A stretch of DNA of 47,094 bases, from positions 1-47,094 of the forward strand of contig JAPLJO010000078.1 in NCBI GenBank assembly GCA_026388515.1, given 5' to 3'. The translations under genes were made by a program, and so were the position numbers. The DNA is from Deltaproteobacteria bacterium (lineage in GTDB: Bacteria > Desulfobacterota > Syntrophia > Syntrophales > UBA2210). The notes below the pieces were generated by a model, which ran no database searches, was not told the origin of the DNA, and saw only the letters and a list, made by a program, of their open reading frames with translations. This document shows positions 24,127-46,889 of this stretch, in pieces (the stretch's first letter is position 1; the number at the start of each line of letters is the position of its first letter).

Positions 24127-25149
24127 ATGACACAGACATTCCCCTTATCCCGTGATGCGGCAAACCGGGTCCGCTACCGCCCGGGCCCGGGAAGAGGCCA
24201 CTACGAAAGCTACTTCATCCGCGCGAATCACCCGGACGAACCCCTCGCCTTCTGGATACGCTATACCATCTTCAATCCCGCGAACCCCGAAGGCCGCCCT
24301 CTCGGGGAAATCTGGGCAACCTTTTTCGACGGGCGCAACGGCATTCACGTTTCAGTCAAAAACGAGCTTCCCCTGTCCTCATGCGTCTTCGGCACCGGTG
24401 AACTCCGCGTAAAGGTCGGTGATACCGCACTGGATGGCCGCACCGCACAGGGAACGGCGCATTCGAGCGGAAATACCATCGGCTGGAACCTTGCCTATGC
24501 CGGCGATTCACCGCCGCTTCTTCTCCTACCGCCGGAAAAATACGAAGCGGGATTCCCGAAGGCGAAGAGCCTCGTCTCACTTCCCATGGCCGTATTCAGC
24601 GGAACCATGACCGTCAACGGCATCACCGTACCGGTGGACCGATGGGTGGGGAGCCAGAATCATAACTGGGGCGTGAAACACACCGATCACTACGCCTGGG
24701 GACAGGTGGCAGGTTTTGACGGACACCCCGGGAGCTTTCTCGAGATCATTACGGCACGCCTCAGAATAGGCCCTTTCTGGACACCTTTCATGACGATCAT
24801 GGTACTGCGCCACCGCGGCGGCGAATACGCCCTCAACACGGTTTTGCAGGGTCTTCGGGCGGACGGCGCCTTTTCATACTTTCACTGGGATTTCGCCTCG
24901 AAGCGCAGGGACATTTCGATTGAAGGAACCCTGGAGGCATCACGGGATGACTTCGTGGGGCTCACCTACTACAATCCGCCCGGAGGGGTGAAATACTGTC
25001 TGAATACAAAAATCGCCTCGTGCAGGCTCCGCGTCGCCGCCGGTCGTGACGCGCATGATATACCGCCCGAGGTGCTTGAGACACGCTCACGGGCTGCCTT
25101 CGAGATACTGACGGACGACCGCGCCCACGGCGTCAGGATGCACGTGTAA
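24127..25149 (+). CDS. Lipocalin-like (AttH/CrtC/Svf1-type) protein, function unknown
   Basis: A 340-residue protein without signal peptide or membrane segment. Aromatic beta-strand-rich sequence such as GRGHYESYFIRANHPDEPLA, AFWIRYTIFNP and SQNHNWGVKHTDHYAWGQVA resembles the two-barrel lipocalin-like folds of AttH, carotenoid hydratase CrtC and Svf1. In those families the His/Trp-rich NHNWG-type segment lines the hydrophobic pocket. The assignment is by pattern only and I do not recognise a specific function. It heads a likely operon with an unknown protein, a thiolase-like protein and a DUF35 protein, so a hydrophobic or CoA-linked substrate is plausible. Confidence 0.6.
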   Translation: MTQTFPLSRDAANRVRYRPGPGRGHYESYFIRANHPDEPLAFWIRYTIFNPANPEGRPLGEIWATFFDGRNGIHVSVKNELPLSSCVFGTGELRVKVGDTALDGRTAQGTAHSSGNTIGWNLAYAGDSPPLLLLPPEKYEAGFPKAKSLVSLPMAVFSGTMTVNGITVPVDRWVGSQNHNWGVKHTDHYAWGQVAGFDGHPGSFLEIITARLRIGPFWTPFMTIMVLRHRGGEYALNTVLQGLRADGAFSYFHWDFASKRRDISIEGTLEASRDDFVGLTYYNPPGGVKYCLNTKIASCRLRVAAGRDAHDIPPEVLETRSRAAFEILTDDRAHGVRMHV

Positions 25150-25179: not shown

Positions 25180-25557
25180 ATGGTACAGGAGAAATATCCC
25201 CTCGCCCAGTTCCGGCATATCGTCGAGAGAGTCGATCAGGGCTCGCTTCTCCATAGAAGCCGCCACTGGATCGGCAACGACGATACCGATCGGAACTACC
25301 TGATCACGCTTCCCCGCGACGAGGACCCCATTTACGTGGAACTCTCGTGGAAACGCACCGCGGAGGCGCGTCCCGAATTCGTGGGAATTTTCAAATTTTT
25401 CATCGCCGCCCTGTTGTCCGAAAACTACATACGGCAGTGCGGTGCCGGAAACGTCCGCCTGCGCATTGTCCATTGCCCCGATGGTGTGCTTTATATCCAG
25501 ACAAAGTCCGGGAAGCCGGCGCTCGCAATCGGGGAGTTGCGGGCCATCACACGGTAA
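25180..25557 (+). CDS. Hypothetical protein
   Basis: A 125-residue protein I do not recognise. The start at ATG 25180 has GGGAGGG upstream. It is mixed alpha/beta by eye with no signal peptide or metal-binding cluster; notable segments are DDTDRNYLITLPRDEDPIYV and FVGIFKFFIAALLSENYI. It lies 30 bases after the lipocalin-like gene and 78 bases before the thiolase-like gene on the same strand, which suggests a shared transcript. Base composition and codon use look like those of its neighbours, so it is likely real. Confidence 0.7.
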   Translation: MVQEKYPLAQFRHIVERVDQGSLLHRSRHWIGNDDTDRNYLITLPRDEDPIYVELSWKRTAEARPEFVGIFKFFIAALLSENYIRQCGAGNVRLRIVHCPDGVLYIQTKSGKPALAIGELRAITR

Positions 25558-25635: not shown

Positions 25636-26799
25636 ATGATACAACGTGATGCATATGCCGTCGTAGGGGTGGGATACACGCCGCAGGGACGGGTTCCCGG
25701 ACGGACGTCCCAGAGCTTTCACGTGGAGGCGTGTGTGAACGCCATCAATGACGCGGGACTCACGAAAAAAGACATCGACGGGCTCATCTGCTACCGTCAC
25801 TTTCCCCGGTCCGGTGACGAGCCTGATGTCACGCCCTATCGTGTGGCGGAGCAATTAGGCATTTCGCCGGCATATATGAGCCAGGACGCCAACTGATCGA
25901 GGAGTCACCTCCTGCACGCCGTGGGCGCGCTCGAATCAGGGGAATGCCGCTATGTGATGCTGTCCTACGGTCATAGTGCGCTCTCGAGCGACGGCATGCT
26001 GAGAATGCTCGGCGAGTTCGAGGTGGAAGACATGGTCTTCGGGCACTTCGGAGCCGCCGCGGCGTATGCGCTGGCGGCGCGGCGTGCCATGCACGTGTAC
26101 CGCACCGGTCCCGGCACCTGGCAGCATATCGCCATAGGCCAGCGCAGATGGGCGAATCTCAACCCCCGGGCCATGATGTACGACCGCCCCATGAGTGCGG
26201 AAGAATATTTCAATGCGCGGTGGCACGTAGAACCCTTCCGCTCTCCCGACAACTGCCTGATTACCGACGGCGGCCGCGCCTGCATCATCACCACGGCGGA
26301 ACGGGCCCGTGACCTCCGGCACCGACCCGCCCTTGTCATGGGCATGGGTCACGATCACCCCGCCCGCAGTGTGTACCGCACCCTCGATTTCACCGGTGGG
26401 ACAGGCGCAAAAAAAGCGGGCGAAAAGGCACTCGCCATGGCCGGCATCACCCTCGGTGATATTGATGCCTGCGAAATTTACGACTGTTTTACATACACCG
26501 TGGAACTCACACTGCAGGACTACGGCTTTTTCGGACCCGGCGAAGGCGAAGACTGGTTCCGGGACGGCGCCACGGAACCGGGAGGCAGGATGCCCGTGAA
26601 CACATCGGGCGGGCTCCTCTCCGAGGCATACTTCATGGGGCTCACCCCCTTCACCGAGGCGGTCATGCAGCTTATGGGACGATGCGGCGAGAGACAGCTT
26701 GGGCCGGCAACCCGCACGAAAGACCCTGAAATCATACTCTGCAGCGACAACGGCGGGATATTTCAGAGTCACGCCTGCTATATCCTGAGGAGGCCATGA
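25636..26799 (+). CDS. Thiolase-superfamily (SCP2/Ltp-like) protein interrupted by in-frame TGA; nonsense mutation or selenocysteine
   Basis: One reading frame spans 387 codons and is broken only by TGA at 25894-25896 (codon 87). Before it lie AVVGVGYTPQGRVPGRTSQ and INDAGLTKKDIDGLICYRH, a thiolase N-terminus. After it, SRSHLLHAVGALESGECRYV continues directly. The end has DACEIYDCFTYTVELTLQ and NTSGGLLSEAYFMGLTPFTEA, the pattern of SCP2/Ltp-type thiolase-like proteins that work with DUF35 partners, and a DUF35 gene follows. The TGA falls in the loop that carries the nucleophilic Cys in true thiolases, though an ungapped alignment puts it two residues off. Cys-to-TGA could mean selenocysteine, or simply a point mutation. 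The downstream piece alone (GTG 25921) would lack the first half-domain. Confidence 0.75.
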
Positions 26800-26803
26800 C
26801 GGC

Positions 26804-27214
26804 ATGAGCGAGGAGAAGCCGACACCTGTAATCAATGCCGATACCCGTCCCTTCTGGGAGGCCTGCCGTAACCGAATTCTGAAATTCCAGAAATGCCGGG
26901 CCTGTGGCCATGTGCGCTGGCCCGCCGCATATCTGTGTCCGGAATGCCACTCACTCGACACTCTGTGGGTCCCCGTAAGCGGGAAGGGAACGGTCTTTTC
27001 CTACGTGGTCTATCACGTGGCGTATCACCCGGGATTTCTTTCCGATGTCCCCTATGTGGTCGCTCTGGTGGACCTCGATGAGGGACCCCGCTTTCTTTCC
27101 AATATCACGGGCTGTAGTCCCGACGAGGTGTACTGTGACATGCCCGTGGAGGTGGCCTGGGAAGACAGATCGGCGGAGGTAACCCTGCCGAAATTCAGGC
27201 CGCGCGAGGCGTGA
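26804..27214 (+). CDS. Zn-ribbon/OB-fold protein (DUF35 family)
   Basis: A 136-residue protein with an N-terminal rubredoxin-like zinc ribbon, FQKCRACGHVRWPAAYLCPECHS (two C-x2-C pairs), and an OB-fold: VPVSGKGTVFSYVVYHVAYH then PYVVALVDLDEGPRFLSNI. DUF35 proteins form complexes with thiolases or thiolase-like aldolases and bind the CoA-linked substrate, as known for the archaeal thiolase/HMG-CoA synthase complex and for Ltp2 of steroid side-chain degradation. It starts five bases after the thiolase-like gene with AGGAGG upstream. Its presence as an intact gene is indirect evidence that the neighbour is, or recently was, functional. Confidence 0.92.
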   Translation: MSEEKPTPVINADTRPFWEACRNRILKFQKCRACGHVRWPAAYLCPECHSLDTLWVPVSGKGTVFSYVVYHVAYHPGFLSDVPYVVALVDLDEGPRFLSNITGCSPDEVYCDMPVEVAWEDRSAEVTLPKFRPREA

Positions 27215-27303: not shown

Positions 27304-28116
27304 ATGTTCGAAAAAGAAATCCGTGAGGCCGCATCAATTCTCTCGAAATCTACACGCGCGTCCGCTTCATGCGGCGCCGGGGTTTCGGCGGAGAGCGGCA
27401 TTGCAACGTTCCGTGACGCCGGGGGAATATGGGATCGTATCGACCCTGCCGAGGTCGGGACCCCTTCGGGGCTTATCAACACCCTTGAACGTGAAGCACC
27501 AAAACTCGTACCACTTTTCATCGAGATACTGGACTCCTTCGAAAGCGCCGAACCGAACCCGGGGCACCGTGCACTCGCCGACCTCGAAGCCATGGGCATC
27601 CTCAAGACCGTCATCACCCAGAACGCCGACAATCTCCATCAGGAAGCCGGCACTACCGATGTCATCGAAGTGCACGGCAATCTCTTCAGGATGAAGTGTC
27701 TCGCCTGTGAGAGTATCAGGAAATATGAACGCAAGCCGCTCATCAGGGAAGTAAAGGAGAGGATGGCGGGACTCAACTCGTTCAACCTGACGGCACTGGC
27801 CTCGCTGGCGCCGCGATGTGACGGCTGCGGATTCATGATGCGGCCCGACGTGGTCATGTTCACCGAACCGGTGCAGGACCTTCCACGCGCCTTTGCCGTG
27901 GCGGCAGGCTGCGATGTCATGCTCGTGCTCGGTACATCCGGTGTGGTCTATCCTGCGGCGTATCTGCCTCGCGAGGCAAAAAAATCCGGTGCCGCCATTA
28001 TTGTGATCAATCCCACGGAAAATCCTTTCGAATCGGTGACCGATATATACATTCCCATGAAGACGGGTGAAGTGCTGCCTGCCATTGTGAAAATGATCAG
28101 GGAGAAGGCGGTCTGA
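27304..28116 (+). CDS. Sir2-family NAD-dependent protein deacylase
   Basis: A sirtuin of 270 residues that removes acyl groups from lysine using NAD+. NAD-binding motifs are CGAGVSAESGIATFRDAGG and TQNADNLHQEAG. The catalytic His is in EVHGNLFRMKC, and zinc is bound by C-x2-C pairs in CLACES and RCDGCG. The late motif VLGTSGVVYPAAYLP is typical. A strong AGGAGG lies about seven bases before the ATG. It sits directly upstream of the AddB-like gene; the two probably share a transcript, but a functional tie is not shown. Confidence 0.93.
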   Translation: MFEKEIREAASILSKSTRASASCGAGVSAESGIATFRDAGGIWDRIDPAEVGTPSGLINTLEREAPKLVPLFIEILDSFESAEPNPGHRALADLEAMGILKTVITQNADNLHQEAGTTDVIEVHGNLFRMKCLACESIRKYERKPLIREVKERMAGLNSFNLTALASLAPRCDGCGFMMRPDVVMFTEPVQDLPRAFAVAAGCDVMLVLGTSGVVYPAAYLPREAKKSGAAIIVINPTENPFESVTDIYIPMKTGEVLPAIVKMIREKAV

Positions 28117-30819
28117 TTGCATGACCACCGTATGTGCGGCGAAATGGTGAAACGATCCCTTCACCTCACCTCAACGGGGCGCCTTGCCCGCAGGCTGCGG
28201 GTCCGCCTGCGCCCGGCTGACGGCTCTCCCGGATGGGAACCCCCGGGGATTCTCACCCTGAATGCGTGGTGTGAAAATGCCTGGACGGGTGCATGGCAGG
28301 AAACCGCACCCGCCCCCGAACTTGTGCGGATGAACCTCTGGCGGCGGATTATGGATTCAATGCCGCCGCCCGAATCGCTTCACACCGACCTCTCGCTTTG
28401 CAGGCTGCTGGATGAAACCTTCGAAACGCTGATACGCCACCGCCTCGACCCCCTCTCGGGGGCTCCCTCCACCTCACTCGTGGACTGGAGACGCGAGATC
28501 AGCCGTACTTTCAGGGGCCGGCTTGCCGTGCAGTCCTTCTTCCACCCGTCGGAACTCCCCCTGAAGGTCGCCGATCTATTATCCAGAAAGCTGATTCCAT
28601 GCCCGGAGATGATTGTGCTTCACGGGTTCGAAGCGCCCGCCCCCATCGAGCAGGATCTTTTCGCGTTCCTCGGGTCGATTGCCTCAGTCCGGCATGGTGA
28701 AGAACCGTCCTTCGGCGAGAGCCGGGCGGAAGCCTTCGCCCTTCCATCAAGAGACCAGGAAGTGAAATATCTCGTTTCGCGTCTGGCCGACGACGCCCGA
28801 TCGATCCCGCTTCACCGCATCGGTGTCATTGTTCCCGTTCTGGATGATTACAAAGCCATGATCGAACGGGACATGAAGGATGTCATGGGCGATAACCCGC
28901 CCGCGGGATTCCAGTGGTACAACATCACCCGCGGCGTCCCCGTCAGTGAAACCGCACTCGTCCGGGCTGCGTTTCTTCCCCTGCGGCTCGCCCTCGAGGG
29001 TCAGCCGCGGGAGCTCCTTACCGCCCTTATCTGCTCACCCTATTATGGATGCTGGGCAGGCAGGCGCCACGAGTTCGCCCGGGCGGACCGGGTATGGCGG
29101 GAACGCGGGGCTGAACGGGGCGTGCGCCTCATGTACCGGATGCTCAGAAGGGTGAACCCTTCGCTCCACGACGATCTCACCACGGTGGATCAGGGTCTCG
29201 TCCTTCGCTTCTGCGGCATGAACTTCAGGGAAAAGAGGCCTGGGCGTCACTGGATTTCCTCTCTCCTCGAACTCTGGGATGGCCTCGGATTTCCCGTACT
29301 TTCCGACGAAAAAGATCACGTTGACAGGCGGCACCTCGAAGAAATCGTCCATGACATGAGAAGGTATCTCGGCGGGACCATGATGGATGGGTATGAATTC
29401 CACGCCTGGTTCGTCCACGAGGCAGGCATAAAGACCGCACAGATACGCGCATCCGAAGAAGCGGGCATCCAGATCATGGGTATGATCGAATCGCGCGACA
29501 TCGATTTCGAAAAGATATATCTGATGGATATGAACGACCGGTCGCTTCCCCAGCCTGCGCGTCCGCTTCCCCTTCTCGATTCTCCGGAACGGCGGCATAT
29601 CCAGGGCGGCACCGCCGAAAGCCAGTACCGGTTCGCACGGACCATGTTCGATCGCATTACCCGTCAGGCCCCCCATATCGTCCTTCTGCGGGCGGAGCAG
29701 GACGGCACGACGCCTCTCTCACCCTCACCGTTCTGGCCGAAGTCATACGCAACCGTCTCCCTCGACCTCTGGAATGAACCGGATCCCATGTGGCTTCGGG
29801 CGTCCTGGCTTTCCGGCGCCTTCCAGGGCCTTGCCCGGAGGGAAGACAGTGCCTTTTCCGGAAAGACGTCCGGCGTGGATGGTGATGCGATAGATGATAC
29901 TTCCGCGCATCGGTCCGTCCTCTCGCCGGCACGACTCAAGACCGCCCTTACCTGCCCTTACATGTATTTCGCCGGAGAGGTGCTGGGTATAGAGCCGCTC
30001 GAAGAATTCCGATCCCCCGTCGCCCCGAAGGAACGGGGTCTCCGGCTTCATCGCGTGCTCGCATCATTTACAAAAGAGTTGCGGGAACGCGATATCAGCC
30101 CCGACGAAGACGCCGACGCGGCGATACAGCTCCTCGACAAGTGTATCGGCAACGAACTCGCGGACGTTGCCGGAGATCCCGGCTGGCAGGTGGAACGGGA
30201 GCGCTGGCTGGATACAGGCATATCCCGTGCTCCGGGGCTGCTGCGCGCCTGGCTTGACGAAGAGGCGGCATGGCGGCGTCACGGATGGCGGACGCTCGCC
30301 GAAGAGGCGGCATTCGAGGAACTTTCGCTTACGGAATGGCCCTTTTCCGTACGGGGAAGAATCGACCGTATCGACGGCAGAGCAGACGGGTCTTTTCATC
30401 TCTGGGATTACAAGACGGGCCGCGTCCCCGCATCGGGAAGCGTGCTTAATGATTTTTCCGAGCCCCAGCTTCCTCTCTATCTGCTCGCACTGAAGTCGGG
30501 ACTGTTCGCCGGCATACCCGAGAGCGATGGGCCTCTCTTCGCAGGCTACGTGAAAATGAGTTCCCTGAAGGATCTGAAGCGGACGTCCCTTGACATCACT
30601 GAATCACATCTCGAGAACTGGAAGAGGATTATCGCCGCGCTCGGCACGCTCCTCCGGCATGGCACCTTTCCGGCACGGCCCTACCCTCTGTCGAAGGTCA
30701 CGCAGAGGGTGGCGGAAGAGGCCTGCGTGACATGTCCATTCATCACTCTCTGCGTGCGCGGCCTGAAACCGAAATCCCATGAAGAGGAATCCCATGACGG
30801 GACAGATGCTGAAGGATGA
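28117..30819 (+). CDS. AddB-like DNA repair protein (PD-(D/E)xK nuclease)
   Basis: A 900-residue protein matching, in length and layout, the proteobacterial AddB-like repair family (TIGR03623 type). The N-terminal two-thirds is an inactive helicase-like region without a Walker A motif. The C-terminal nuclease has TALTCPYMYFAGEVLGIEP (about 611), LWDYKTGRVP (about 762, D-Y-K) and CVTCPFITLC (870-879), so four Cys could bind the [4Fe-4S] cluster seen in AddB. It starts at TTG 28117, abutting the sirtuin stop, with AGGGAGAAGG nine bases upstream; ATG at 28132 or 28144 are alternatives. It overlaps the AddA-like gene, its presumed partner in end resection. Confidence 0.88.
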   Translation: MHDHRMCGEMVKRSLHLTSTGRLARRLRVRLRPADGSPGWEPPGILTLNAWCENAWTGAWQETAPAPELVRMNLWRRIMDSMPPPESLHTDLSLCRLLDETFETLIRHRLDPLSGAPSTSLVDWRREISRTFRGRLAVQSFFHPSELPLKVADLLSRKLIPCPEMIVLHGFEAPAPIEQDLFAFLGSIASVRHGEEPSFGESRAEAFALPSRDQEVKYLVSRLADDARSIPLHRIGVIVPVLDDYKAMIERDMKDVMGDNPPAGFQWYNITRGVPVSETALVRAAFLPLRLALEGQPRELLTALICSPYYGCWAGRRHEFARADRVWRERGAERGVRLMYRMLRRVNPSLHDDLTTVDQGLVLRFCGMNFREKRPGRHWISSLLELWDGLGFPVLSDEKDHVDRRHLEEIVHDMRRYLGGTMMDGYEFHAWFVHEAGIKTAQIRASEEAGIQIMGMIESRDIDFEKIYLMDMNDRSLPQPARPLPLLDSPERRHIQGGTAESQYRFARTMFDRITRQAPHIVLLRAEQDGTTPLSPSPFWPKSYATVSLDLWNEPDPMWLRASWLSGAFQGLARREDSAFSGKTSGVDGDAIDDTSAHRSVLSPARLKTALTCPYMYFAGEVLGIEPLEEFRSPVAPKERGLRLHRVLASFTKELRERDISPDEDADAAIQLLDKCIGNELADVAGDPGWQVERERWLDTGISRAPGLLRAWLDEEAAWRRHGWRTLAEEAAFEELSLTEWPFSVRGRIDRIDGRADGSFHLWDYKTGRVPASGSVLNDFSEPQLPLYLLALKSGLFAGIPESDGPLFAGYVKMSSLKDLKRTSLDITESHLENWKRIIAALGTLLRHGTFPARPYPLSKVTQRVAEEACVTCPFITLCVRGLKPKSHEEESHDGTDAEG

Positions 30820-33800
30820 AAAGGAGCGGAAGGCCGCACTTGGCACCGGCAGGTCCTTTCATATAGAGGCGCCGGCAGGTTCGGGCAAGACGCTCCTCCT
30901 CACACGGCGCTTCGTGGCACTGCTTGGAGAAGTGCGCCATCCCCGTGAGATCCTCGCCCTCACCTTTACGGATAAGGCGGCGGGTGAGATGCGGAACCGC
31001 ATCCTCCACTATCTCAGGCAGGCACTGGCAAAGGAGCCGCCTGCATGCGATGAAGAGGCGGAAATCCTAGCATCGGCAGAAAAAGCCCTCGCCGCACAGC
31101 ACCGTTACCTGGACACGCTCATGACCTCGGACGGCCTCAATATCATGACATTTCACGGCTTCTGCAACTATCTCATCAGGAGGGCCCCCGTCGAAGCAGG
31201 CGTCTCTCCGGATGTGCAGGTCATCGACGAAACAGCGCAGCCGCTTCTCATTGAAGAGGCGCTTCAACGGACCATGGATGACCTTTTCACAAAACCGCGC
31301 GATGATGAACGGCGGCTCGCCTTCGAGCGCCGTCTGCTTCATCACAACAACAACTGGCAGAGCATCAGCGAAGAGATGCGGTCCATTGTGAAAGGACGGC
31401 ACCGCATCGGGGACCTCGTCGCCATCGTGCAGTCGGCCGGCGGTATCAGAGTTCCGTCACTCGGCGCCGTACTCGGGGAGCGCCTCCGGCGGTATATCGA
31501 AAACCGGCTGGCGGAGGTCCGGACCGCCTTCAGCGCCAGCCGGATTGGCGCATCCTGGCCTTCCTTCATCGAGCACCTCGCCTCGCGGCATGCTCCCGCC
31601 GCCGGCATGCTCCCGCCTCAGATTCCCGACGCCATGTGGGACGCGCTTCCCACATGGCAGGCCCTCGCCAGCTGCCTCCTCACCACTGCCGGACAGCCGC
31701 GAAAAAAACCCGGGCCGAAGGCAGGTTTCTATTCCGGATTCGGCAGTACGGACTGGGCCGCGATGATTCAGGAGACGGGCGATGAGGCGGCAGCGGTCCT
31801 TCACACCGTGCGGAACCTTCCCCTGCAGACGGACCCCGTCACGGATGAGGAACTCCTTTCTGATTTCATCATATGTGCCGCAGAAGTCGTCAGTGTCTAC
31901 GAAACTCTCTGCCGGGAGCGTTCAGTGATCGATTTTGCGGGGCTGGAAGAGAAGGCGCTCCGGGTACTTGACGAAGCCGGTCCTTCCGAACTCTACCTCT
32001 CGCTGGACCACAGGATCAGGCATCTCCTCATCGATGAATTTCAGGATACCGACAGACGTCAGTGGGAGCTCGTAAAAAAACTCTGTGCGGGGTGGGAACC
32101 GGGTGACGGAAGGACGCTCTTCATTGTGGGAGATCCAAAACAGTCGATCTATGCATTCAGAAACGCCGAAGTACGTCTCTTCACCGAGGCACGGGACGGC
32201 ATTCCCCGTCCGGGAGAAGTTTCCCTTGCACTCGCACCGCTTACGCTCACCACCAACTTCCGCTCATCGGAAACACTCATCGACTGGGTAAATACCCTTT
32301 TCGGAAACCGCGTGATGGCATCCCCCGACAATGATGCCGACGAGGTCGCATTCGGCGCCTCCGTGGCGTGCGGCGAAAAGAAGGAGCGCACCGGCACCCT
32401 GAGTCTCGACCTCTTTGCCGACGACGACAGGGGACACGCGGCGCAGAGCGAGGCGCGATGGCTTGCGCACAAGGTGCGCAGGCTCCTCAATGAAGGAGAG
32501 GGAGGGTTCTCCATCGCCATTCTTCTCTTTACGAGAAACCGGCTTCCCCTCTATCTCACCGCGCTCAAGGATGCGCAGATACCGGTCCAGGTGGAGGAAG
32601 GGCTTCTTCTCGCGGACCGCCCTGAGGTCATGCACCTGCTCCAGATGGCCCGGATGCTTGCCTTCCCCCACGATGACCTCGCCTGGGCATCACTTATCCG
32701 GTCACCCTGGTGCTGGTTCGATGCAAAAACGCTTTTCCACGTGGCATCGTTCCCCGCCGAGAGCTGGTCACGGAAACTGCATCTCGCCGTTGAGACGATC
32801 GAGGAACTCGGGGATCTTCTCCGCGCCGTTGATACGGCACAGAGGAGGGTCGGGCGGGACCATTTCGGTCGCGTGGTGAAGAGGCTGTGGAGTGACTGCG
32901 GCGGCGCTGAGATGACGGCACGGCGATACGGGATGTCCGGTGTGGCCAACTGTATGCGTTTCTTCGAAATCCTCGAACAATGTGAAAAGGGCACGCCGCA
33001 GGAAACGCTCGCCTGCCTTAAATGGATTATGGACACCGCATACGAACCGGTAGACCCCACGACATCGCGATCTCCCGTTCACATGATGACCGTTCACCGG
33101 GCAAAGGGGCTTGAATTCGACTTTGTGTTCCTCCCGTTCATGGACTGGAAGCCCCTCGGAAGCGGGCCCCGCATGCCTCCGCCCTATCTCATAGAACGTC
33201 TTCCCGCGACCAATGGCTCCTACTTTGTTGCCCTGGGTACCGACCGCAGGACGGGACTCACCTCGAAGACATATTCGCTCCTGAAAACCCTGGAGAAGAA
33301 CCGCCGGTGGGGCGAGGCGAAGCGTCTTTTCTACGTGGCGGCGACGCGGGCGAAAAGAGGCCTCTCGATGAGCGCAGCCCTTGCCGCAAAGGAGGGCAAA
33401 ATCGCCATTCCGGACCGAAGCATCCTCCGGTGGGTGACGGACGAATGCGGCTGCGGCGATGCCATTTCAGGAGTAATCGAAAGGCCGGGGAACATGATTT
33501 CAATCGCCCTTAATTCCTCTCTGCCGCCGGCAGATATGAAGCGAACCCCGCACATCAACATCCCGCCGCCCTGCGAAATCGAACCGGAAAGAATTCCCAG
33601 GGAAATCGAAACACCGTCGCTCGCCGCCGACAAAGCCGCGGGCGATGCCGAAGCAACATCCGCAATAGAAGAGACTCTCACCATTGAGCAGCTCAGGGGG
33701 ACGGTAATCCACAGGCTCGTTGCAGCGATGATAACGTGCGGCATTGAGCCGTCCGAGGAAGCGGTTACCCTCGCGCTTGCACGTGAAGGCGTCCCGGCAG

Positions 33801-34189
33801 AAAAGGCACGTGAAATGGCCGCAGAATGTCTCGGGGAAGCACGTAAGTCCATCAGATCGGCGTTCATATCGGACCTCATGGCCCGTGCCCGGGAACCGGT
33901 ACGGAGTGAATGGGCCATGGAAGACGAACCACGCCAGGGGGTAATCCGCTCGGGAAGTGCGGACCTTGCCGTGTATGACGGTTCCTGCTGGTGGATCGTG
34001 GATTTCAAGACAGGGCGGCCCATGAAAGGCGAATCGGATGAGGCATGTATCGCACGGCATGGGGACCTTCACCGGCAACAGATGAAGGCCTACAGCGAAA
34101 TGGCCGTCGCCGTCACGGGGGTCGAAAAAACTGCCGTCCGCTGCGGCATATATCTCACGGCACTTCAGAAATGGGTGGAGATATCGTAA
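30794..34189 (+). CDS. AddA/RecB-like UvrD-family helicase-nuclease
   Basis: An 1131-residue SF1A helicase with a C-terminal RecB-type nuclease. Motifs in order: Walker A EAPAGSGKTLLLTRRF (about 25), Ia LTFTDKAAGEMRNRI, II LLIDEFQDTD (about 410), III IVGDPKQSIYAFRNAE, V MTVHRAKGLEFDFVFLP, VI LFYVAATRAKRGL. The nuclease has GTVIHRLVAA and WIVDFKTGRP (about 1066). The ATG at 30794 has AGAGGA upstream; one at 30779 lacks it. The gene overlaps the AddB-like gene by 26 bases. Together they probably process double-strand breaks for recombination and destroy foreign linear DNA. Confidence 0.93.
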   Translation: MTGQMLKDEKERKAALGTGRSFHIEAPAGSGKTLLLTRRFVALLGEVRHPREILALTFTDKAAGEMRNRILHYLRQALAKEPPACDEEAEILASAEKALAAQHRYLDTLMTSDGLNIMTFHGFCNYLIRRAPVEAGVSPDVQVIDETAQPLLIEEALQRTMDDLFTKPRDDERRLAFERRLLHHNNNWQSISEEMRSIVKGRHRIGDLVAIVQSAGGIRVPSLGAVLGERLRRYIENRLAEVRTAFSASRIGASWPSFIEHLASRHAPAAGMLPPQIPDAMWDALPTWQALASCLLTTAGQPRKKPGPKAGFYSGFGSTDWAAMIQETGDEAAAVLHTVRNLPLQTDPVTDEELLSDFIICAAEVVSVYETLCRERSVIDFAGLEEKALRVLDEAGPSELYLSLDHRIRHLLIDEFQDTDRRQWELVKKLCAGWEPGDGRTLFIVGDPKQSIYAFRNAEVRLFTEARDGIPRPGEVSLALAPLTLTTNFRSSETLIDWVNTLFGNRVMASPDNDADEVAFGASVACGEKKERTGTLSLDLFADDDRGHAAQSEARWLAHKVRRLLNEGEGGFSIAILLFTRNRLPLYLTALKDAQIPVQVEEGLLLADRPEVMHLLQMARMLAFPHDDLAWASLIRSPWCWFDAKTLFHVASFPAESWSRKLHLAVETIEELGDLLRAVDTAQRRVGRDHFGRVVKRLWSDCGGAEMTARRYGMSGVANCMRFFEILEQCEKGTPQETLACLKWIMDTAYEPVDPTTSRSPVHMMTVHRAKGLEFDFVFLPFMDWKPLGSGPRMPPPYLIERLPATNGSYFVALGTDRRTGLTSKTYSLLKTLEKNRRWGEAKRLFYVAATRAKRGLSMSAALAAKEGKIAIPDRSILRWVTDECGCGDAISGVIERPGNMISIALNSSLPPADMKRTPHINIPPPCEIEPERIPREIETPSLAADKAAGDAEATSAIEETLTIEQLRGTVIHRLVAAMITCGIEPSEEAVTLALAREGVPAEKAREMAAECLGEARKSIRSAFISDLMARAREPVRSEWAMEDEPRQGVIRSGSADLAVYDGSCWWIVDFKTGRPMKGESDEACIARHGDLHRQQMKAYSEMAVAVTGVEKTAVRCGIYLTALQKWVEIS

Positions 34190-45784: not shown

Positions 45785-45897
45785 GCAACCCCTGCTTTAG
45801 GCGCGGTACGTATGAATTCCATCTAAACGCTCTTCTGTGCGCACGGAAGGTGTAGTGATCTCACGCGTGACGTCCCATACTCAGGGGTACAGAATGT

Positions 45898-45974
45898 GCG
45901 CCCGTAGCTCAGCTGGATAGAGTGGCAGACTTCGAATCTGTTGGTCGTAGGTTCGAATCCTACCGGGCGTACCA
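45898..45974 (+). tRNA. tRNA-Arg, anticodon TCG (codon CGA)
   Basis: A 77-base cloverleaf with encoded CCA. The acceptor stem is GCGCCCG paired with CGGGCGT (one G-U). The D arm is GCTC with loop AGCTGGATA. The anticodon stem GCAGA/TCTGT encloses loop CTTCGAA, with TCG at 45932-45934. The T arm carries GGTTCGAATCC. It stands alone, followed after about 80 bases by a truncated gene, so its 3' end may have served as an integration site. Confidence 0.97.
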
Positions 45975-46021
45975 GCTTCATAAAATATTATCTCATTAAA
46001 TCAATCACTTACAATTTTGGA

Positions 46022-46046
46022 ACCTACTGAAATTTATCCAGTAGGT
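46022..46046. repeat. Inverted repeat at the 5' edge of the nrdJ fragment
   Basis: ACCTACTG, nine bases and CAGTAGGT form a perfect 8-bp inverted repeat just before the point where ribonucleotide reductase similarity begins (about 46050). It may be a scar of the event that truncated the gene, a terminator-like hairpin without a T-run, or chance. Confidence 0.5.
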
Positions 46047-46052
46047 ATTCTC

Positions 46053-46889
46053 ATGGAAGTCCACCCCCTGTTCGATAAGATGGCCAGAGCGCAGGGATGG
46101 CATTCACACGCCCTTATGGAAAAGATCGCAGAAAGCGGGTCTATCCAGGACCTACACGAAATCCCCCCGGATATTCGCAAGGTATTTGTCACGGCCCACG
46201 ATATCACGCCGGAGGATCATATCCGGATGCAGGCGGCGTTCCAGAAGCACACCGATAATGCAGTCAGTAAAACCGTGAATTTCCCCCACACTGCAACAAT
46301 CGAAGATGTCAAAAAAATATACGAACTCGCCTATAAAATGGATTGCAAGGGCGTGACCATATATCGTGACGGGTCAAGGGACCAGCAGGTGCTTTCAACC
46401 GTCAAGAAACCAAAAAACGCAGGAGAGAAGAACGCCGTCCGCGAACGACCTCTGTCCCTTAAAGGATGGACATACCGAATGCAGACTGGCTGCGGCCCAT
46501 TGTATGTCACAATCAATGAAGATGAATCGGGTCTTTTCGAGGTATTTACCACGATGGGCAAGGCAGGTGGCTGCGCTGCGTCACAAAGTGAGGCTATTGG
46601 GCGGATGGTTTCTCTTGCCTGGCGGAGCGGTGTTCAACCTCACCAGGTCATCAAGCAGCTACTGGATATCTCCTGTCATTCACCTTCGGGCTTTGGTGAT
46701 ACTAAGATTCTTTCCTGTGCCGATGCGGTCGCTAAGGCTATTCAGCTTCACATGGTATCAAATGGATATTCTGAGAAAATAGAGAAAAGGCCTTTATTCA
46801 AAGGGGCATGCCCTGACTGTGGTGGTATCATCGATCACCAGGGGGGATGCTTGACATGCCGTGCCTGTGGTTATAGCGAATGTGGATGA
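46053..46889 (+). pseudogene. 5'-truncated class II (B12-dependent) ribonucleotide reductase, C-terminal part
   Basis: An intact frame of 278 codons from ATG 46053 (open back to 46017). It matches only the C-terminal region of NrdJ: MEVHPLFDKMARAQGW, VTAHDITPEDHIRMQAAFQ, TDNAVSKTVNFPH and KGVTIYRDGSRDQQVLS. Then come a TSCPD domain (TGCGPLYVTINEDESGLFEV) and a zinc ribbon with CPDCGG and CRACGY. Full-length NrdJ is 700 residues or more, so the catalytic barrel with the thiyl-radical site is missing. Its codons look more AT-rich than those of its neighbours. It lies between tRNA-Arg and a group II intron end, which suggests rearrangement. A working copy is presumably elsewhere. Confidence 0.85.

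Follow-up and report, generated by a model that had tools for sequence, protein, structure and literature searches.

Closest described systems

The closest described systems to the gene analysed here are proteins of the thiolase fold, and several points of likeness and difference emerge. First, the Sal-Shy(DUF35) bile acid aldolase of Comamonas testosteroni (9myr) is alike in its fold, its DUF35 partner, and its YDC motif, in which Tyr302 and Cys304 of CtSal are catalytic (PMC12329534). It differs in having glycine at the nucleophile position (PMC12329534) and glutamine where Y332 of the present protein and Tyr344 of TcLtp2 stand; it lacks selenocysteine, and the two share 30% identity. Secondly, the Ltp2-ChsH2(DUF35) steroid aldolase (6ok1), also 30% identical, is alike in fold and partner, and its catalytic residues Tyr294 and Tyr344 (TcLtp2; PMC12329534) have counterparts in Y282 and Y332; however, it contains neither cysteine nor selenocysteine at the nucleophile site (its loop is GYGGG), and has YDHF in place of YDCF. 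Thirdly, a putative thiolase of Sphaerobacter thermophilus (4u4e) is the best match in both fold and sequence (TM 0.85, 35%), although its loop, AVGGSS, is likewise devoid of cysteine and selenocysteine. The SCP2-type and archaeal acetoacetyl-CoA thiolases (7yvy, 6esq) share the fold and have a nucleophilic cysteine with which residue 87 of the present protein aligns in profile comparisons, but use the histidines of HDxF and GHP motifs where Y282 and Y332 are found here. Finally, the benzoylsuccinyl-CoA thiolase BbsAB (7pxp) is similar in its fold and in having an OB-fold partner; the BbsB and BbsA cut-offs are far from reached (62 of 750 bits and 46.8 of 250 bits, respectively).

Selenium was reportedly found in a thiolase of Clostridium kluyveri by the Stadtman laboratory in the 1980s, although as selenomethionine and not as a genetically encoded active-site selenocysteine. 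No thiolase-fold, lipid-transfer or acyltransferase entry is present among the 119 prokaryotic selenoprotein families in Table 1 of a 2026 compilation (PMC13188914), and none is mentioned in the main text of the deep-Sep paper, the 2022 review, or the GOS, 2016 and 2006 papers; Deng et al. 2026, which presents unvalidated candidates from groundwater MAGs, may list one. Because the literature covered has no thiolase entry, we class the gene described below as what appears to be a new selenoprotein family. No encoded selenocysteine was found on record for its fold, whose enzymes form and cleave C–C bonds and do not perform redox chemistry.

A candidate selenoprotein gene

The gene is transcribed rightwards at coordinates 25636–26799 of the window, the whole 47,094-nucleotide stretch of DNA that was analysed. 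Its frame is open from 25636 to 26796 with the exception of a single in-frame TGA at 25894–25896, and closes with a second TGA at 26797–26799. With the internal TGA read as selenocysteine (U), the product is a 387-residue thiolase-fold protein (SCP2-thiolase / Ltp2-Sal-like) with Sec as residue 87, in the context SQDAN-U-SRSHLLHAVGALESG. The first-pass annotation had described the frame as continuous on both sides of the TGA, and the entire 387-residue reading does align with its relatives end to end at 58–73% identity, which rules out a chance open reading frame or a fusion. Pfam recognises only Thiolase_C_1 (PF22691, C-terminal, 139 bits) in this protein, and every NCBIfam model stays below its cut-off; the nearest, PRK06158 'acetyl-CoA acetyltransferase', scores 274.5 bits where 421 are required.

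Judged from the comparative evidence given below, the TGA is very probably read as selenocysteine and the gene thus encodes a selenoprotein; all the computational checks proposed in the first-pass annotation favoured this reading. The fuller statement, that this selenoprotein is a DUF35-partnered thiolase-fold enzyme in which Sec87 serves as the acyl nucleophile, is considered likely as a whole. Computed support covers the selenocysteine coding, the SECIS element, the decoding machinery, selection, the fold, the partner gene, and the positions of the motifs.

Codon 87 among relatives

Relatives are present in 51 of 60 related genomes, the close ones (>60% identity) constituting the family, and others were drawn from 70 loci in GTDB contigs; within genomes of the same order, 25 of 155 contain relatives at E ≤ 1e-100. 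Codon 87 was counted in full-length genes of at least 56% identity, with duplicates removed. It is TGA in 33 distinct genes and TGT or TGC in 26, with no other codon among the 59. The TGA genes span many genera, mainly Syntrophales and other former Deltaproteobacteria, whereas the Cys genes occur mainly in Dehalococcoidia, Desulfurella, Hippea and others; TAA and TAG are never seen, and the only sense codons are those for cysteine. A more distant relative (51%) also has cysteine at the site. This divergent Cys form (L087, 4001–5161 of its own contig) is from a Lachnospiraceae bin (Candidatus Mediterraneibacter), distant from the other hosts, and perhaps arrived by horizontal transfer.

A protein tree constructed with site 87 masked requires four state changes at this position, for which the simplest account is a single gain of Sec from Cys with three returns to Cys; the putative reversion groups are L003, L058/L060/L075, and L032/L035/L038/L118. 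To the 3′ side of the TGA, dN/dS is 0.05–0.20 in 14 pairs of TGA genes, with the 5′ part behaving alike in most pairs, and the low values downstream of the TGA indicate that the readthrough product is what selection acts on.

These patterns bear on whether the TGA could be a true stop, arising from nonsense mutation, pseudogene formation or sequencing error. Any one genome could hold such a codon, and most of the relatives are metagenome bins, but TGA recurs at this codon in 33 different full-length genes and purifying selection to its 3′ side is strong, so that we regard a true stop as vanishingly improbable. The fresh nonsense mutation that had been offered as an alternative in the first-pass annotation, and a pseudogene likewise, are excluded by the retention of the TGA across many genera together with the downstream selection.

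The window's genome contains 24 matches to the query. Among the matches listed, those other than the window gene have no internal stop and resemble ordinary thiolase or lipid-transfer paralogues.

Selenocysteine decoding in the host genome

No sel genes were seen in the window, as had been noted at the outset, but all four are found elsewhere in the genome (2.68 Mb). These include selB (352 bits against a cut-off of 242), a tRNA-Sec gene (selC; 72.8 bits against a gathering threshold of 47), and selA and selD (580 and 388 bits, both above curated cut-offs). In addition, the SelD gene (L130) contains an in-frame TGA within its UxxK motif, and two formate dehydrogenase FdhA-type genes (L135 and L136) contain in-frame TGA codons within their UHS motifs. 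The presence of selA, selB, tRNA-Sec and selD, together with the TGA codons of SelD and the two FdhA-type genes, shows that this genome decodes selenocysteine. Formate-tetrahydrofolate ligase (PF01268) was not found in it.

Among the relatives, SelB is above its cut-off in 27 of the 28 genomes with a TGA locus, and the 28th has a truncated selB at the start of a contig; in genomes where only the Cys form was found, SelB is present in 12 of 21. The association between selB and TGA is significant by Fisher's test whether the truncated copy is counted (p = 0.00014) or not (p = 0.001).

A SECIS-like hairpin downstream of the UGA

A candidate SECIS hairpin is located at 25913–25931 on the same strand, with a GU loop at 25921–25922, a closing pair C25920–G25923, and a bulged G at 25924. 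Numbering the T of the TGA as 1, the element occupies columns 20–38 with GU at 28–29, and it was compared in alignments of 31 TGA genes and 25 Cys genes. The consensus of the TGA genes across these columns is AGCACGC-X-GU-X'-R-GCGYGCU, where X and X' are the third bases of an alanine and a valine codon, respectively, and vary jointly: the closing pair is A-U in 21 genes, C-G in six and G-C in three, with a single mismatch (L050). Paired cells in the hairpin amount to 90.3% in the TGA genes versus 50% in the Cys genes. None of 500 shuffles of the TGA alignment matches either the observed paired percentage or the covariation score, whereas for the Cys alignment 393 and 277 of 500 shuffles do so. 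Synonymous sites are also frozen in the TGA genes, with Gly97 encoded by GGC in 29 of 29, Val98 by GTG in 17 of 17, and His94 by CAC in 30 of 31, and the same codon sites are variable in the Cys genes.

The covariation comprises one pair with few independent change events, and the folding energies of four TGA sequences taken singly are no more stable than those of shuffles (z from −0.85 to +0.71); the case for a SECIS element therefore rests on the codon freeze and the contrast with the Cys genes. The window's own copy has two weak pairs, A23/C35 and T20/T38. RNAalifold recovers the stem from the TGA alignment and misses the closing pair because the program disallows a two-nucleotide loop. A covariance model constructed from that alignment scores the window at 70.1 bits, the window sequence itself being within the alignment, and three TGA genes outside the build score 68–72 bits versus 16–56 bits for Cys genes, with part of these scores reflecting shared coding sequence. 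In the E. coli SECIS element G23 and U24, as well as U17, are important bases (PMC8659212); compared to E. coli fdhF the GU loop bases are alike, but they stand at 28–29, so that their distance from the UGA exceeds that of G23–U24 by 5 nt.

Downstream of the UGA there is thus a hairpin that is SECIS-like by comparative analysis, with GU in its apical loop and confined to the TGA genes. It corresponds to the inner hairpin proposed in the first-pass annotation, which had also described two further pairings in this region. Both of these, the outer stem TCGAG/CTCGA (4–8 with 37–41) and the competing hairpin AGGAG/CTCCT (7–11 with 16–20), are present in the window sequence, but their conservation is no better than that of shuffles and they are incidental.

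An in-frame TGA by itself would look identical if it were decoded as another amino acid, through a reassigned code or readthrough without selenocysteine. However, the homologues have cysteine at this site and not tryptophan or glycine, the gene uses TGA as its own terminator, the genome has the full selenocysteine machinery, the TGA tracks selB, and the hairpin is found only in TGA genes; decoding as another amino acid is accordingly highly improbable.

Fold and partner subunit

An AlphaFold2 model of the 387-residue protein has a pLDDT of 86.5 and a pTM of 0.90, and Foldseek matches it in order to the putative thiolase 4u4e, Ltp2-ChsH2 (6ok1), Sal-Shy (9myr), and then to the Pyrococcus protein 7yvy and SCP2 thiolases. 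Immediately to the right of the selenoprotein gene, and transcribed in the same direction, is a gene at 26804–27214 encoding a zinc-ribbon and OB-fold protein (PF12172 and PF01796) of the DUF35 / ChsH2-like type. A DUF35 homologue lies directly downstream in 53 of the 56 family loci; in two of the other three (L079 and L086) the contig ends less than 0.9 kb from the codon, and in L040 none was found in the 2.8 kb that follow. The enzyme most likely acts in complex with the DUF35 subunit encoded beside it.

Active-site residues

The TGA had been placed within about two residues of the thiolase nucleophile, and this holds in both of the registers obtained. HMMER comparisons with 7yvy and 6esq and an hhalign comparison put Sec87 on the nucleophilic cysteine itself, with QDAN-U aligned with ENA-C or EAA-C, an alignment requiring a loop deletion of 2–3 residues just after residue 87; in an ungapped helix register, residue 87 falls two residues later than the nucleophile. 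The C-terminal motifs are of the Ltp type, as the first-pass annotation had suggested. The thiolase HDxF and GHP histidines are absent, and their places are taken by Tyr282, within a YDCF motif (Y282-D283-C284-F285, 26479–26490) that is the counterpart of YDHF in Ltp2 and YDCY in Sal, and by Tyr332, within an EAY motif (26623–26631) aligned through 6ok1 and 7yvy with Tyr344 of TcLtp2 and the GHP histidine. Y282 thus corresponds to Tyr294 of TcLtp2, Y332 to Tyr344, and YDC to the Tyr302/Cys304 pair of CtSal, and Y282, D283, C284 and Y332 are all invariant in the family alignment (A3).

A sister clade with 51–56% identity to the window protein (L081–L085, L088, L089 and L093) has neither Sec nor Cys at the site; its loop is of the glycine type (e.g. 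GASAG) and three residues longer, and it retains YDC together with EAY, EVY or a close variant. The Sec/Cys clade is set apart from these by Y53, R54, R89 and D371, and by cysteines at 52, 104 and 369, which are present in 34, 38 and 35 of 39 Sec/Cys members, respectively, and in none of five from the sister clade; C350 is found in 38 of 39 versus one of five. In the tree the Sec/Cys clade joins the glycine-type aldolase-like branch and not the Cys thiolases, although deep support is weak (72). This grouping suggests, but does not prove, that the nucleophile was lost and then regained in the Sec/Cys clade.

Possible roles of Sec87

We propose that SelB would bring Sec-tRNA(Sec) to the UGA at 25894–25896, guided by the hairpin with its GU loop 25–26 nt past the UGA. 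With selenium available this would yield the full-length 387-residue enzyme containing Sec87, and without it an 86-residue stub would be expected. Together with its DUF35 zinc-ribbon/OB-fold subunit, the enzyme would act on a CoA thioester: Sec87 would attack the carbonyl of the CoA thioester or a beta-ketoacyl-CoA and the acyl group would be held as a selenoester; acid/base catalysis on the enolate side of C–C cleavage or formation would come from Tyr282, Cys284 and Tyr332. The complex with DUF35, the substrate, and the acyl-selenoenzyme are inferred. Taken separately, the assignment of Sec87 as the acyl-carrying nucleophile has perhaps an even chance of being correct; counting against it, the alignment on the thiolase cysteine needs the loop deletion, tyrosines stand in for the HDxF and GHP histidines, the nearest relatives (the sister clade and Sal/Ltp2) lack the cysteine, and Sal and Ltp2 are aldolases. 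More tentative still, and somewhat short of an even chance, is the proposal that a lost nucleophile was regained as Cys and then as Sec, giving a selenoester-carrying, non-redox C–C enzyme in the acyl-CoA metabolism of anaerobes.

Sec87 could instead be an additional catalytic or oxyanion residue, never acylated, in an aldolase of the Sal/Ltp2 type performing retro-aldol cleavage of a beta-hydroxyacyl-CoA. Consistent with this, Y282, C284 and Y332 match residues that serve CtSal and TcLtp2 as acid and base, the sister clade with its glycine-type loop retains them, and a DUF35 partner is common to these aldolases. Yet such aldolases need no cysteine here (it is glycine in CtSal; PMC12329534), whereas Cys/Sec is invariant in the Sec/Cys family and R89, Y53, R54 and D371 differ along with it, and we consider the aldolase role rather unlikely. 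A redox, protective or metal-binding role, with Sec87 bonded for example to C52, C104, C350 or C369, is similarly unlikely, and slightly the more so. Three of these cysteines (C52, C104 and C369) are limited to the Sec/Cys clade and C350 is mostly so, and a redox function is assumed for most known selenoproteins (PMC13188914); on the other hand, there are no UxxC, CxxU or UxC motifs beside the Sec, the fold has no redox cofactor, and the site is the nucleophile loop.

Should Sec87 be the nucleophile of a thiolase fold, genetically encoded selenium would reach the chemistry of C–C bond lyases or acyltransferases, most known selenoproteins being redox (PMC13188914) or metal-binding. Members of the family occur widely among Syntrophales and their relatives, and annotation normally splits or truncates such genes at the UGA. 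Its natural Sec/Cys pairs, with about 67–73% identity, offer a system in which to test the benefit of selenium in an acyl-transfer enzyme, and the sister clade provides a natural comparison for the contribution of Sec.

Gene neighbourhood

Beyond the DUF35 gene there is no conserved operon among the family loci. An enoyl-CoA hydratase cluster occurs in just five loci, and the other neighbouring genes differ and do not indicate any single pathway (e.g. steroid side-chain degradation). In the window, the two open reading frames upstream of the selenoprotein gene, at 24127–25149 and 25180–25557, match no Pfam family. To the right are a sirtuin gene (27304–28116) and, adjoining it, an AddB/AddA-like pair at 28117–34189 composed of a PD-(D/E)XK nuclease (900 aa) and, beside it, a 1136-aa UvrD helicase that also carries a nuclease domain. 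Further to the right, an open reading frame at 46017–46889 has matches only to the final ~107 positions of the barrel domain of ribonucleotide reductase and to TSCPD; it directly follows a tRNA-like hit at 45896–45972, and could represent a split NrdJ-type subunit or else a gene lacking its start.
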